Made by a program: the position numbers and the translations under genes
The notes under the pieces: generated by a model
Database searches by the model: none
What the model was told of the DNA's origin: nothing
The model's input: only the letters and a program-made list of their open reading frames with translations
Part shown: piece by piece, positions 31,610 through 36,580 of the stretch
How positions within the stretch are numbered: the stretch's first letter is position 1
Layout of the letters: each line of letters begins with the position of its first letter
Assembly (NCBI RefSeq): GCF_003019675.1
Contig: NZ_CP028105.1
Coordinates: 2,248,282 to 2,312,281, forward strand
Direction: 5' to 3'
From: Fusobacterium ulcerans
GTDB taxonomy: Bacteria > Fusobacteriota > Fusobacteriia > Fusobacteriales > Fusobacteriaceae
Length of the DNA: 64,000 nt

Positions 31610-31635
31610 GTTCTCGTTTGTGTATAAATGCGAAC
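31610..31635 (+). repeat. Left inverted recombination-type site (IRL)
   Basis: A 26-bp site that is nearly the reverse complement (24 of 26) of the site at 31808-31833; the 19 bases TTTGTGTATAAATGCGAAC are identical in inverse. It is built as 10-bp arm, 6-bp asymmetric centre (GTGTAT), 10-bp arm; the left arm has two changes (GTTCTCGTTT). Confidence 0.85.
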
Positions 31636-31807
31636 ATTTAAAGAATTTAAAAACATCTAAAACAATCTTTATTCCTATTAACTATATATACCACGAAAAA
31701 ATAAAATAATCAATTTTTATTTTCTTAAAAAATTTCAATTTTTAAAAAAATATATTTTAAAACTTGAATTTAAGATAATTTTTGACAAAAAATAAAAAAA
31801 TAAAAAA
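31636..31807. mobile_element. Candidate invertible promoter segment (172 bp)
   Basis: This gene-free, very AT-rich segment lies between inverted 26-bp sites. On the minus strand it carries a good promoter: TTGATT (31713-31708), 17-bp spacer, TATATA (31690-31685), with TGG before the -10. In the present orientation it points left, away from the HU-like and autotransporter genes; inverting the segment would aim it at them. No equally good rightward promoter was found. Confidence 0.7.
31685..31713 (-). promoter_or_regulatory. Promoter inside the candidate inverton, facing away from the adhesin
   Basis: Minus-strand TTGATT-17-TATATA with an extended -10 (TGG). The predicted start is near 31678, reading out through the left site. 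Confidence 0.6.
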
Positions 31808-31833
31808 GTTCGCATTTATACACAAATGCGAAC
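31808..31833 (+). repeat. Right inverted recombination-type site (IRR)
   Basis: GTTCGCATTT, centre ATACAC, AAATGCGAAC: two perfect 10-bp arms around a 6-bp asymmetric centre, the layout of a tyrosine-recombinase core site. It is followed by AGTTTTTT, so on RNA it could also act as a hairpin terminator. Confidence 0.85.
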
Positions 31834-31873: not shown

Positions 31874-32194
31874 ATGACAGAGGCTGAATTTCTTGAACTG
31901 TATAAAAAGAAGAGAAAATTGAAAAATATAAAAGAGGCAAAAGAGAAGTTGGAACTATTTTGGGAGGTAATTTTTGCAGGAATAGCAACAGAGAGAAAAG
32001 TAATAGTAAAAGATTTTGGAACATTCGAAGCAAAGAAACTCAAACCAAGAAAGATATATGATATTCATAAAAATAGTTTGTATATGACAAAAGAGAGAAC
32101 AGCATTAAAATTCAGAGTAAAAAATGGTTTTATGGAAATTGTGAATAAAAAAGTAAATAACTATGGCTTATCAGATGAAACTGGGATGAAGTAA
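31874..32194 (+). CDS. HU-family DNA-binding protein
   Basis: A 106-residue HU/IHF-like protein. After an N-terminal helical extension it shows the fold's conserved stretch: VIVKDFGTFEAKKLKPRK, an arm region with KNSLYMTKERTALKFRVKNGF. HU proteins bend DNA and assist site-specific inversions such as those of Hin and Fim. The ATG at 31874 follows AAAGAGGA; the longer reading from 31826 starts inside the right inverted site and is unlikely. It lies 41 bases beyond the inverted site and 51 bp before the autotransporter, so it is probably co-transcribed with it. Divergent from housekeeping HU and likely specialised. Confidence 0.85.
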   Translation: MTEAEFLELYKKKRKLKNIKEAKEKLELFWEVIFAGIATERKVIVKDFGTFEAKKLKPRKIYDIHKNSLYMTKERTALKFRVKNGFMEIVNKKVNNYGLSDETGMK

Positions 32195-32245: not shown

Positions 32246-35200
32246 ATGATTAGCAATTTTAATGAGGTAGAGAAATCTCTAAAGAGATGTTTAAAAGAAA
32301 AGGTATCAATAACCACAGCCACTGTGGTAGGATTTTTGATAGCAGGTACAGTGGCATTTGGAACAGAGGCTACAGTAACTAAAGAATACACTAATGAGAA
32401 CTTTTCAACTGCAATAACTGAAGAGGTAATGAATAATCAATATGGATTAATGTTAAAAGATAATACAGAATTTAAAGGGGTTATATATGAATTTAAATTT
32501 GGTGAAGAAAAGCCTTCAGCCATTGAACGTCTTATAACAGTTAGTAAAGGAAAAACAACACTGGATAAAGATACAAATCTTTCAACAAGTGAAGGGATGA
32601 CTTTATTAAATATAGTTGGAGAAGATAAAACTGGTATTACAGAGGTAATTAGTGAAGCAATTTTAATAAATAACAACTCTTCTTTAGAAGAAGAAAATGA
32701 TCGTTTTTGGAGACCAACAGTTATTGTAAATGGTTTTCAAGGTAATACTTCTTTTACAAATTCTGGAACAATAACTAAAACAGGACATCCAACATATAAT
32801 TGTGCAGTTGATTTATCTGCTGGTAAAGATTATATAACAACTTTCACAAACAGTGGAATAATTAATGGACTTATAAAGTCAGATGCTGATGACAGACAAT
32901 TAGGTGATATTGTTATAAACCTAAAAGATAATTCAAAAATAAATGGAGAGTTCTCTTTTGCTGGTGGTGGAACAAGAACAATAAATATTGACAGTAATAA
33001 TAATGGTGGTAAGGAATTAATAGTAAATAATACTGAAGACAATGAAACTTTTATAAAAACTAATAATAGTGATATTACATTAAGAGGAAAAATACAGTCA
33101 AAAGGGACAACAGTAGAATTAAGTAATAGAAATGGAAATAATACTTTAACAAACTATGCTGATATAATTGGAAAAACAGGAATAGGAGTAGCAGATACAG
33201 AACAAGATACAAATCCAGAGGCTAAAAATAGAACAGTAACAATAAAAAACAATGGAAAGATTACTGCATCATTTGAAGGAATACATAATAATGGGTACCA
33301 TACGAAGTATAATAAAGTGTATATAGAAAATAATGGAGATATTTTGGTAAATGATTTTGAAAAAGATGAGGATACTTATGATAGACCTTATTACTATAAT
33401 ACAGGAATATATTCAGCATCAGCACCATATATGGAAACTCCTGGAGAAGTAGTTAATAATGGAAATATAACTATCGAATTAAGTGAAGATCAACAGAAAG
33501 AATTAGAAGAAAAATATAAAGAAACAGAGGGAAATATGTTTCTTAATATTCATGGATTAAGACTTCATGAGCATACATGGGGATATAACAATGGAAAAAT
33601 TCTTGTAAATTCATATGGTGGTATAGGAGTTGTACTTTCTGATGGCGATATAAATGCAAATGCTCTTGAAGATGTATATGGATATTTTGAAAACAATGGA
33701 ACTGTTGAAGTAAATGGAGAAAATGTAATAGGAGTACAACTTAGAAATGCGGAGGGAATAACTGCTAAAAAAGAAGCAATAAATACAGAAAAAGGAAGTA
33801 TTTTAGTATCTGGAAAAAATGCCATAGGTGTAAAAGTGGAGGGAGCATCAACAACTTTCACGAACAATGGAATAATTACATTAAAAGATGGAACTACTAA
33901 TGGAATAGGAATATCTATCGACAAAGGAACAGCTACAAATAATGGAACAATAGCATTAGGATTAGGAGAAGATGGTAAATCTGGAAATCTTGCTATAAAA
34001 AATGAAAATGGTACAGCTAAAAACACTGGTAAAATAAAAATAACAGATAAAACATCTGAAGAGTTAAAAGATTTTGATATTTCAACTTTATTTAATGGAA
34101 AATATTTTAATTCAGGAATGATTGTAGATAAGAATGGAAAGGCAATAGAAAAAGAGGGAGATATAGTAATTAATGGTGGAGAAGTAAATGCAGGGGATAT
34201 AAACAATGCTGGTGGAAATGGAAGTATAGTTATCAAAGGGGAAGAGACAACAATAAAAGGTTCAACAGACCAATCTATTGAAGTAGAATCTCTAAATGTT
34301 ACAGGAAAAGTAACTATTGCAAATGGAGAGAGCAATGCACCTGTAGAAATAAAAGGAACTACAACTAATCTAGATGCTAGTGGAAGTATAGCAGTAGGAA
34401 ATGGAACAAGTAAAGCTGATTTAACAATTACTAATGGAACAGTAAATGCAGAAGCTGATAAAACAGCAGTAACATTTGCTCATGCAGACTCAACTTTAGA
34501 ATTATCAGGAACAACTTTTAATGGAAATATAGGCGATGGAACTACTAATGGAACATTAAAAACAGCAGGAACAGAAAAAGCAACAGTAATAACTGGAGAT
34601 GTTAAAGCTAAAGCACTAGAACTAGCTGGAACAACATCAATAATAGGAAATATAGAAGCTAAAACAATGGATGTAACAGCTGGAAATACTGAAATAACTG
34701 GAACAATAACAGGAGCTGAAACAATTAATATAGGAGTTCCTACCGTTAAGTTATTTTCATTAAACAGAATGGCAGTTCCTACTGATACAGAAAAAGCAAC
34801 AGTTACATATTCAGCAGACTCAGCAATAAAAGGAACTGTTGGATCTGGAACAACAGTAACTATTGGAGCTGATGGAATGCTTAAAGCTGAAGTAGATAAT
34901 GATGGAAAAAATCTATTTGGAAATTCTGAAAATGTAACTGTAACTGGAGATGGAACAATTCAATTTCTTACTTCAAATATAAATAAAGAAAATTTAACAT
35001 TAAAATTAGGAAATAGTGTAAGTATTGACGGTATATCTAATATTATAACAAACAGCGAATTTTATTCATATAATAATGGAGCATTAAGTTTTATAAAAGG
35101 TAATGTAAATAATAAAGAATTAGCCGATATGTATAACAAGTCTTTTGTAATAAATAATGTACTTTCTCAAAATAAGGATGTTAGAGAAGCTCAATTAGAT

Positions 35201-36124
35201 TCTGTTTATTCAAATAATGTATATTCAGAAACAGTAAAAATGGCTATGGATACTTTGAGAATGAATGAAGATGCAGTATTGTCACTAGGAGGAAAACCAG
35301 AAGAAGGAAAATGGACAGCACAAGGTAAAATACTGTTTAGCAGAACAGAATATGACAGAGATGGAAAAGTAAATAATTACGGTGTAGAAACAAAGACAAC
35401 AGGATTATTGGGAGCAATGGAATATGGAGTTTCTGAAAAATCATCAGTAGGATTTGCTTTCTCAGGAACTAAACAAGATCTTGATATGAAAAATGCAAGT
35501 GCAGATGGAGATGCTTTCTACTTTGGAGTATATGGAAAACAAGATGTAAATAATTTCAAACTAACAGCAGGATTAGGATATCAATTAGATAAAATAGACG
35601 CTGATAATAATGTAATAGCTTCTACAGGAAATAAATATAATTCAAAAGCATTCAGTGGATATGCTCAAGGAAAATATGTAATAAATGCAGGAAATGATGT
35701 AACAGTAGAACCAAAAGTTAAATTGGCATTGACAAGATTAACTCAAGAATCTGTAGAAGATAAGCACTTTGAAATGGAAAAAGTAGAAGCAACAACATTT
35801 GATACAGAAGTAGGAGTAGATTTAATAAAAACTATAAAACTAGAAAGTGGAAAAATGAATCTATTAGCAGGAATCAGCTACACAAGAAGTATGGGAGATA
35901 CTGATAATAAATTCAAAGGAAATTTCATTGGAACAGATGGAACAAGAGGAAATAGATTTGATGTACTAGGGGCAAATTTAGGAGAAAATACTCTAAAAAT
36001 TAATATAGGAGCAGAAGTAGAAAAAGATAATGGAATCTTCTATAATGGTGGAATAAATTATAAATTTGACAATGAAGACAGAGAAACACTTGGAGCAACA
36101 ATAGGAGCAGGGTACAAATTCTAA
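32246..36124 (+). CDS. Autotransporter adhesin-like protein (type Va)
   Basis: A 1292-residue surface protein. The N-terminus has the long fusobacterial signal form (charged stretch MISNFNEVEKSL, then hydrophobic TATVVGFLIAGTVAFG, about residues 20-42). The passenger (about 45-970) is full of short beta-helix-like units with repeated NNG, TNNGTI and GNGTS words. The C-terminal beta-barrel (about 1010-1292) shows WTAQGKILFSRTEYD, GLLGAMEYGVSEKSSVGFAF, and ends in GAGYKF, the aromatic end needed for outer-membrane insertion. It probably mediates adhesion; the ligand is unknown. The operon begins with an HU-like gene and a candidate promoter inverton, which suggests phase-variable expression. 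Confidence 0.92.
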   Translation: MISNFNEVEKSLKRCLKEKVSITTATVVGFLIAGTVAFGTEATVTKEYTNENFSTAITEEVMNNQYGLMLKDNTEFKGVIYEFKFGEEKPSAIERLITVSKGKTTLDKDTNLSTSEGMTLLNIVGEDKTGITEVISEAILINNNSSLEEENDRFWRPTVIVNGFQGNTSFTNSGTITKTGHPTYNCAVDLSAGKDYITTFTNSGIINGLIKSDADDRQLGDIVINLKDNSKINGEFSFAGGGTRTINIDSNNNGGKELIVNNTEDNETFIKTNNSDITLRGKIQSKGTTVELSNRNGNNTLTNYADIIGKTGIGVADTEQDTNPEAKNRTVTIKNNGKITASFEGIHNNGYHTKYNKVYIENNGDILVNDFEKDEDTYDRPYYYNTGIYSASAPYMETPGEVVNNGNITIELSEDQQKELEEKYKETEGNMFLNIHGLRLHEHTWGYNNGKILVNSYGGIGVVLSDGDINANALEDVYGYFENNGTVEVNGENVIGVQLRNAEGITAKKEAINTEKGSILVSGKNAIGVKVEGASTTFTNNGIITLKDGTTNGIGISIDKGTATNNGTIALGLGEDGKSGNLAIKNENGTAKNTGKIKITDKTSEELKDFDISTLFNGKYFNSGMIVDKNGKAIEKEGDIVINGGEVNAGDINNAGGNGSIVIKGEETTIKGSTDQSIEVESLNVTGKVTIANGESNAPVEIKGTTTNLDASGSIAVGNGTSKADLTITNGTVNAEADKTAVTFAHADSTLELSGTTFNGNIGDGTTNGTLKTAGTEKATVITGDVKAKALELAGTTSIIGNIEAKTMDVTAGNTEITGTITGAETINIGVPTVKLFSLNRMAVPTDTEKATVTYSADSAIKGTVGSGTTVTIGADGMLKAEVDNDGKNLFGNSENVTVTGDGTIQFLTSNINKENLTLKLGNSVSIDGISNIITNSEFYSYNNGALSFIKGNVNNKELADMYNKSFVINNVLSQNKDVREAQLDSVYSNNVYSETVKMAMDTLRMNEDAVLSLGGKPEEGKWTAQGKILFSRTEYDRDGKVNNYGVETKTTGLLGAMEYGVSEKSSVGFAFSGTKQDLDMKNASADGDAFYFGVYGKQDVNNFKLTAGLGYQLDKIDADNNVIASTGNKYNSKAFSGYAQGKYVINAGNDVTVEPKVKLALTRLTQESVEDKHFEMEKVEATTFDTEVGVDLIKTIKLESGKMNLLAGISYTRSMGDTDNKFKGNFIGTDGTRGNRFDVLGANLGENTLKINIGAEVEKDNGIFYNGGINYKFDNEDRETLGATIGAGYKF

Positions 36125-36220: not shown

Positions 36221-36580
36221 ATGAAAAAAGTATTAATATTAATGGCAGCTCTATTAATGATGAGCTGTGGAAATAATTCAAAAGAAATAGATCTTTCATT
36301 ATTAGAGAATAAAAGCGGAATTTTCTATGAAAAGGGAAGTGAAAAACCATTTACAGGAAAGGTAACAGCTAAGTATCCAGATGGGAAGAAAATGCTGGAA
36401 AGTTATTGGAAGGATGGAAAGCAGGAAGGCAGACAGATTCAATACTATGAAGATGGAAAGCCTAAAATAGAAGGAGTATTCAAAGATGGAAAAGCAAATG
36501 GAGCTATAAAAGTATATGATGAAACAGGAAAAATAATAGTAGAAGAAGAGTGGAGAGATGGAGTAAGAGTAAAAAAATAA
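36221..36580 (+). CDS. MORN_2/YwqK-like lipoprotein
   Basis: A 119-residue lipoprotein: signal peptide with lipobox LMMSC (about residue 16), then MORN-type units with the pattern YPDGKKMLESYWKDGK, YYEDGKPKIEGVFKDGK, and YDETGKIIVEEEWRDG (about residues 45-115). YwqK-like proteins in other bacteria are named antitoxins or accessory proteins, but those on the outer membrane are usually of unknown function. ATG follows AGGAGA. It is monocistronic between two terminators. Confidence 0.82.
   Translation: MKKVLILMAALLMMSCGNNSKEIDLSLLENKSGIFYEKGSEKPFTGKVTAKYPDGKKMLESYWKDGKQEGRQIQYYEDGKPKIEGVFKDGKANGAIKVYDETGKIIVEEEWRDGVRVKK

Follow-up and report, generated by a model that had tools for sequence, protein, structure and literature searches.

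A predicted invertible promoter switch before an HU-autotransporter operon of Fusobacterium ulcerans, one of at least 23 in the chromosome

The region upstream of an HU-autotransporter operon in F. ulcerans is very probably a promoter switch that inverts by site-specific recombination. It would be one of at least 23 such switches in the chromosome, probably served by a shared invertase, for which the tyrosine recombinase P0002 is the best candidate. The locus was analyzed within a 64,000-nucleotide stretch (the window), which covers positions 2,248,282-2,312,281 of the single 3.54-Mb contig of its genome (G000). The two sites reported by the first-pass annotation were found at exactly 31610-31635 and 31808-31833, and as inverted copies they indeed agree at 24 of 26 bases, with 172 bp in between.

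31610..31635, plus strand: left (upstream) recombination site, GTTCTCGTTT-GTGTAT-AAATGCGAAC
31620..31625: 6-bp centre GTGTAT of the left site, the probable crossover or overlap region, judged by identity within pairs and variability between pairs
31808..31833, minus strand: right recombination site, inverted relative to the left; the plus strand reads GTTCGCATTT-ATACAC-AAATGCGAAC
31818..31823: 6-bp centre ATACAC of the right site, the probable crossover or overlap region

The layout of two arms around a centre also held, as the 10-bp arms of the right site form a perfect dyad and those of the left site pair at 8 of 10 positions. The centres GTGTAT and ATACAC are identical once one site is reversed. 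No third match to the site pattern was detected within the 64-kb window, and 100 shuffles of the window gave 0 matches. When the intergenic region was resampled 40 times under a first-order Markov model, the best pair agreed at 22 of 26 bases, compared to 24 of 26 observed. The site pair is beyond chance, and the segment is bounded by short inverted repeats like those of an invertible promoter switch.

The genes behind the segment and the features within it were as follows.

31636..31807: 172-bp predicted invertible segment, called OFF here on its alignment to the paralogue G000:2099442 only when reversed
31685..31713, minus strand: predicted segment promoter, TTGATT-17-TATATA with TG before the -10, pointing away from the operon
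31877..32194, plus strand: HU-family DNA-binding protein gene, about 105 aa, first in the putatively controlled operon (PF00216, E 4.5e-9)
32246..36124, plus strand: autotransporter, 1292 aa (PF03797 beta-domain, E 2e-28)
36221..36580, plus strand: downstream MORN_2-repeat lipoprotein-like gene, 119 aa (PF07661)

An alternative in-frame ATG for the HU-family gene lies at 31826, inside the right site, and is the less likely start. In the proposed mechanism, a tyrosine recombinase would cut within the 6-bp centre of both 26-bp inverted sites and reverse the 172-bp segment. With the segment ON, its promoter would drive the HU-like gene together with the 1292-aa autotransporter; the orientation in this genome would send transcription the other way, which corresponds to OFF. 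One invertase encoded elsewhere probably serves all of the at least 23 chromosomal switches, with P0002 as the best candidate.

The evidence for inversion comes from related loci. The paralogue at G000:2,099,442-2,099,665 (L032) has the same HU-autotransporter-lipoprotein gene order, including a homologue of the 119-aa MORN_2 gene at the equivalent place (L032 gene 12968-13327). Both of its flanks align directly to the window locus, and its interior aligns only when reversed (score 121 versus 7). The outer arm GTTCTCGTTT of the left site also stands on the left side of this paralogue, and the inner arm AAATGCGAAC is common to both loci. The homologues in the congeners G008 and G009 are oriented like the window copy, so that the G000:2,099,442 segment is reversed relative to them too. 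A polysaccharide family of loci behaves likewise: with collinear flanks, the G000:912,837 segment has the opposite orientation to those at 287,995, 2,355,475 and one G010 locus. Arm polymorphisms in this family show outer arms that stay with the flanks and inner arms that go with the segment, which points to exchange within the centre. In a third family, G008:3783353 is reversed relative to three others, with weaker scores. Both orientations therefore occur between paralogous loci and between sister species.

The same comparisons bear on whether the segments are small MITE-like elements that were inserted either way. Terminal inverted repeats are present, a module is duplicated at several loci, and one segment carries an IS200-like insertion. 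However, segments of different families have no clear sequence in common, no target-site duplication was apparent on inspection, and the partition of outer arms with flanks and inner arms with segments is that of inversion in place. This reading was rejected on that pattern and is extremely improbable.

The promoter of the invertible segment was described by the annotation as the only good one between the sites. The sequence TTGATT-17-TATATA is present on the minus strand, but it is weak by consensus: its hexamer score is no better than that of AT-rich shuffles, it was not among the calls of a generic promoter scanner, and its consensus strength is below that of most sister switches. Support for this promoter comes from conservation. 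Among seven homologous segments from four genomes, 31685-31713 is the most conserved two-hexamer position (rank 1 of 143), and the TG before the -10 is kept in all seven. In the 2,099,442 copy this conserved predicted promoter points toward the operon, and in the window copy it points away. The OFF state proposed for the window adhesin is therefore predicted by comparison with a paralogue of opposite orientation.

The centres were then compared across 95 inverted pairs, the sum over G000 (23) and the congeners G008 (23), G009 (23) and G010 (26), found by a pair search over the fetched regions. The six centre bases were the same in both partners in 94 of the 95 pairs, while random re-pairing of sites gave identical centres in 17 pairs on average and 30 at most. 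Twelve centre types were found, of which ATACAT is the commonest (49 pairs); centres vary between loci and are not unique to a locus. At the positions flanking the centre, matching within pairs was hardly above that between pairs. At arm positions 5 to 7, which vary, partners agreed in just 45-67 of the 95 pairs. A tyrosine-recombinase site consists of two arms around an overlap of 6-8 bp. Here partners are identical at exactly six centre positions and the arms are free to differ, as expected from tyrosine-recombinase strand exchange over a 6-bp overlap. The 6-bp matching makes the 2-bp overlap of serine-invertase sites less likely. The sole unmatched pair, G009:1564473 (L154, G009:C1:1564473-1564649), has ATACAT against ATAGAT; this switch is predicted to be locked, and the mismatch perhaps arose by exchange between neighbouring switches.

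The right site itself forms a hairpin followed by AGTTTTTT and is terminator-like (RNA fold -13.5 kcal/mol, z -4.7), scoring so on both strands. No Rfam families or tRNAs were found near the sites. Together with the T-runs after many sites, this fold would suit bidirectional intrinsic terminators or operator dyads that undergo no recombination. Neither kind of element would require a partner 120-230 bp away with the same asymmetric centre, and the reversed interiors between homologous loci would be left unexplained; on these two grounds the terminator-only reading was rejected as very improbable. A hairpin function may exist alongside recombination. Under the switch interpretation, the right-site hairpin and T-run lie between promoter and operon when the segment is ON, so some attenuation of ON-state transcription is possible. 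In B. fragilis, an inverse correlation was reported, with less transcription where more such repeats lie between promoter and genes (PMC4747536).

The genome search suggested by the annotation recovered more than 30 sites by pattern search of the contig. At up to 2 mismatches, the pattern occurred 32-47 times per strand in G000, G008, G009 and G010, and at most once per strand in the other genomes among 96 of the order. Segments precede 14 autotransporter loci in G000, two of them via an HU-like gene. The other G000 targets are capsule or polysaccharide genes (bacterial sugar transferase PF02397, glycosyltransferase PF01075, MBOAT PF03062), one outer-membrane beta-barrel and one stand-alone HU-like pair. 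Thus one site family is scattered over many loci, as in a master (global) DNA invertase system. Most other segments contain TTGACT-17-TATAAT-like promoters, mostly aimed away from the autotransporter, capsule or HU-like genes, and the spacer is 17 bp in 75 of 76 confident segment promoters. A rough automatic census, crude in its choice of target gene, placed 51 of the 95 pairs as OFF (away from the adjacent gene), 9 as ON (toward it) and 35 as undecided.

Small-gene switches were ON in all four genomes, at G000:1388331 (L030), G008:2467943 (L136), G009:3056156 (L148), and G010:719361 and 3929355 (L165 and L181), in contrast to most autotransporter switches, which were OFF. The small genes behind them are HU-like by Pfam in G000 and by size alone in the others. 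Many switch-autotransporter loci also adjoin a module of 79-aa HTH_17, 272-aa IstB/DnaC-like ATPase and 276-aa genes, located upstream of the segments at L021, L026, L036, L042 and others. This repeated module suggests that the loci were spread by phage-like or mobile copies. At L040:7630-8531 (G000:C1:2934129-2935030), an IS200-like transposase gene (PF01797) is inserted in the segment, which is now 850 bp long, and the downstream autotransporter is split into two ORFs.

The annotation had noted that no invertase lies in the window, and phage-integrase-family genes were absent within the 64 kb. Elsewhere in the genome nine matches to this family were found, several of them candidates, so a genome with 23 site pairs also has candidate tyrosine recombinases; these findings, together with the reversed paralogue and its collinear flanks, support the phase-variable interpretation. 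The candidates are Phage_integrase (PF00589) proteins, and two of them are paralogues of 198 aa with the catalytic domain only.

G000:C1:2057860-2058453: P0002, tyrosine recombinase, 198 aa, 0.22 Mb away
3,280,800: P0001, recombinase, 75% identical to P0002

P0002 has relatives at 80-91% identity in all four site-bearing genomes (clade threshold at least 80%), and outside these genomes no relative exceeded 56% identity among the 96 genomes of the order. Because its clade co-occurs with the sites in these four genomes only, P0002 is the best candidate for the invertase on comparative grounds. The four genomes probably form one clade, so the association of enzyme and sites may reflect a single evolutionary event. 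A recombinase search of wider genome-contig and viral-contig collections, where records near G000 may be absent, gave no match. A serine recombinase was set aside as the less likely enzyme; the genome has one member only, in a 504-aa frame.

The switch may also be real and worked by another recombinase, namely P0001, P0003, a XerC/D-like enzyme or several with overlapping duties; we consider this unlikely, though far from negligible. P0001 is close to P0002 in sequence and intact in three of the four site-bearing genomes, and P0003 has orthologues in all four. However, G009 is rich in sites even though its P0001 copy is broken, and P0001 lies between 27-bp inverted repeats of its own, for which these genomes gave no further strong match. 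Orthologues of P0003 are found across most of the genus, including members without sites.

P0001 lies within a 0.8-kb segment, L194:8677-9481 (G000:C1:3280676-3281480), with private inverted repeats beginning GGTTAATATAAGATATT. Between collinear flanks, this segment and the gene within it have one orientation in G008 and G009 and the opposite one in G000 and G010. A promoter-like sequence, TTGATT-17-TATCAT, at the segment's end is directed in G000 and G010 at a cluster of lipoprotein and FadA (PF09403) adhesin genes. From this arrangement, the P0001 segment is probably a self-inverting FadA switch. Invertase relatives with about 52-57% identity to P0002 and P0001 are also encoded on the F. varium plasmid AP017969 (L201), where one adjoins an autotransporter-like ORF.

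A switch that was once active and is now locked, with past inversion only, would agree with the mostly OFF segments, the mismatched G009 pair and two G000 sites without a clear partner. Against this, the two window sites still have matching centres, and the candidate enzymes are intact and retain the catalytic residues of the motif HxxR, H, Y. Locking is therefore improbable, and the preferred reading is that of a switch at which inversion may still go on.

Taken jointly, the observations allow a tentative wider picture for the F. varium group. More than 20 surface-gene switches per cell might be run by a single small recombinase or by two paralogous ones, with alternative 6-bp overlaps limiting which sites recombine. 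HU-like proteins from switched operons might in turn influence inversion or act on one another's loci, and the FadA cluster might be switched by a second recombinase cassette that inverts itself through a private site.

In the F. varium/F. ulcerans group each genome has 32-44 autotransporters, according to a study (PMC5720691) whose main text makes no mention of promoters or inversions. A search of the open literature, outside subscription papers, supplements and preprints, found no description of promoter inversion in Fusobacterium. Shared promoter flipping would explain how many surface proteins could be mostly silent with few sampled at once, and about 23 switches would probably let a cell remodel a large part of its surface. 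Testable consequences follow for adhesin expression, immune exposure and differences between strains of these gut bacteria.

Among known systems, the closest at the scale of a single locus is the UpaE/ipuS switch of uropathogenic E. coli (PMC6083910), which has an invertible element with a sigma-70 promoter before a two-gene operon of a regulator and an autotransporter, as the predicted promoter here stands before the HU-autotransporter operon. It is inverted by small tyrosine recombinases, the same kind as the candidate in Fusobacterium. However, the E. coli system has adjacent recombinase genes, a 260-bp element, 7-bp repeats and a LuxR-type regulator, whereas the Fusobacterium switch has no adjacent recombinase, 26-bp dyad sites, an HU-like gene in first place and about 22 sister switches. 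At genome scale, the network resembles the Mpi, Tsr0667 and Tsr19 systems of B. fragilis (PMC4747536, PMC5903667), in which a distant invertase acts on many surface-polysaccharide or outer-membrane promoters through a shared site. Mpi is a serine recombinase (13 regions) and the Tsr enzymes are tyrosine recombinases; the PF00589 candidates here, with the sole serine recombinase in its 504-aa frame, do not include a small serine recombinase of the Mpi family. Fusobacterium differs from B. fragilis in having at least 23 pairs per genome, mostly at autotransporters, in another phylum and with several centre types matched within pairs. RecV of C. difficile (PMC5903667) is a tyrosine recombinase acting at several scattered switches, as is proposed for Fusobacterium, and is needed for only a part of the switches identified there; the host and the targets differ, and the site sequence probably does as well. 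The predicted Fusobacterium network is a large new case of the known global-invertase kind, and its scale is the new part.
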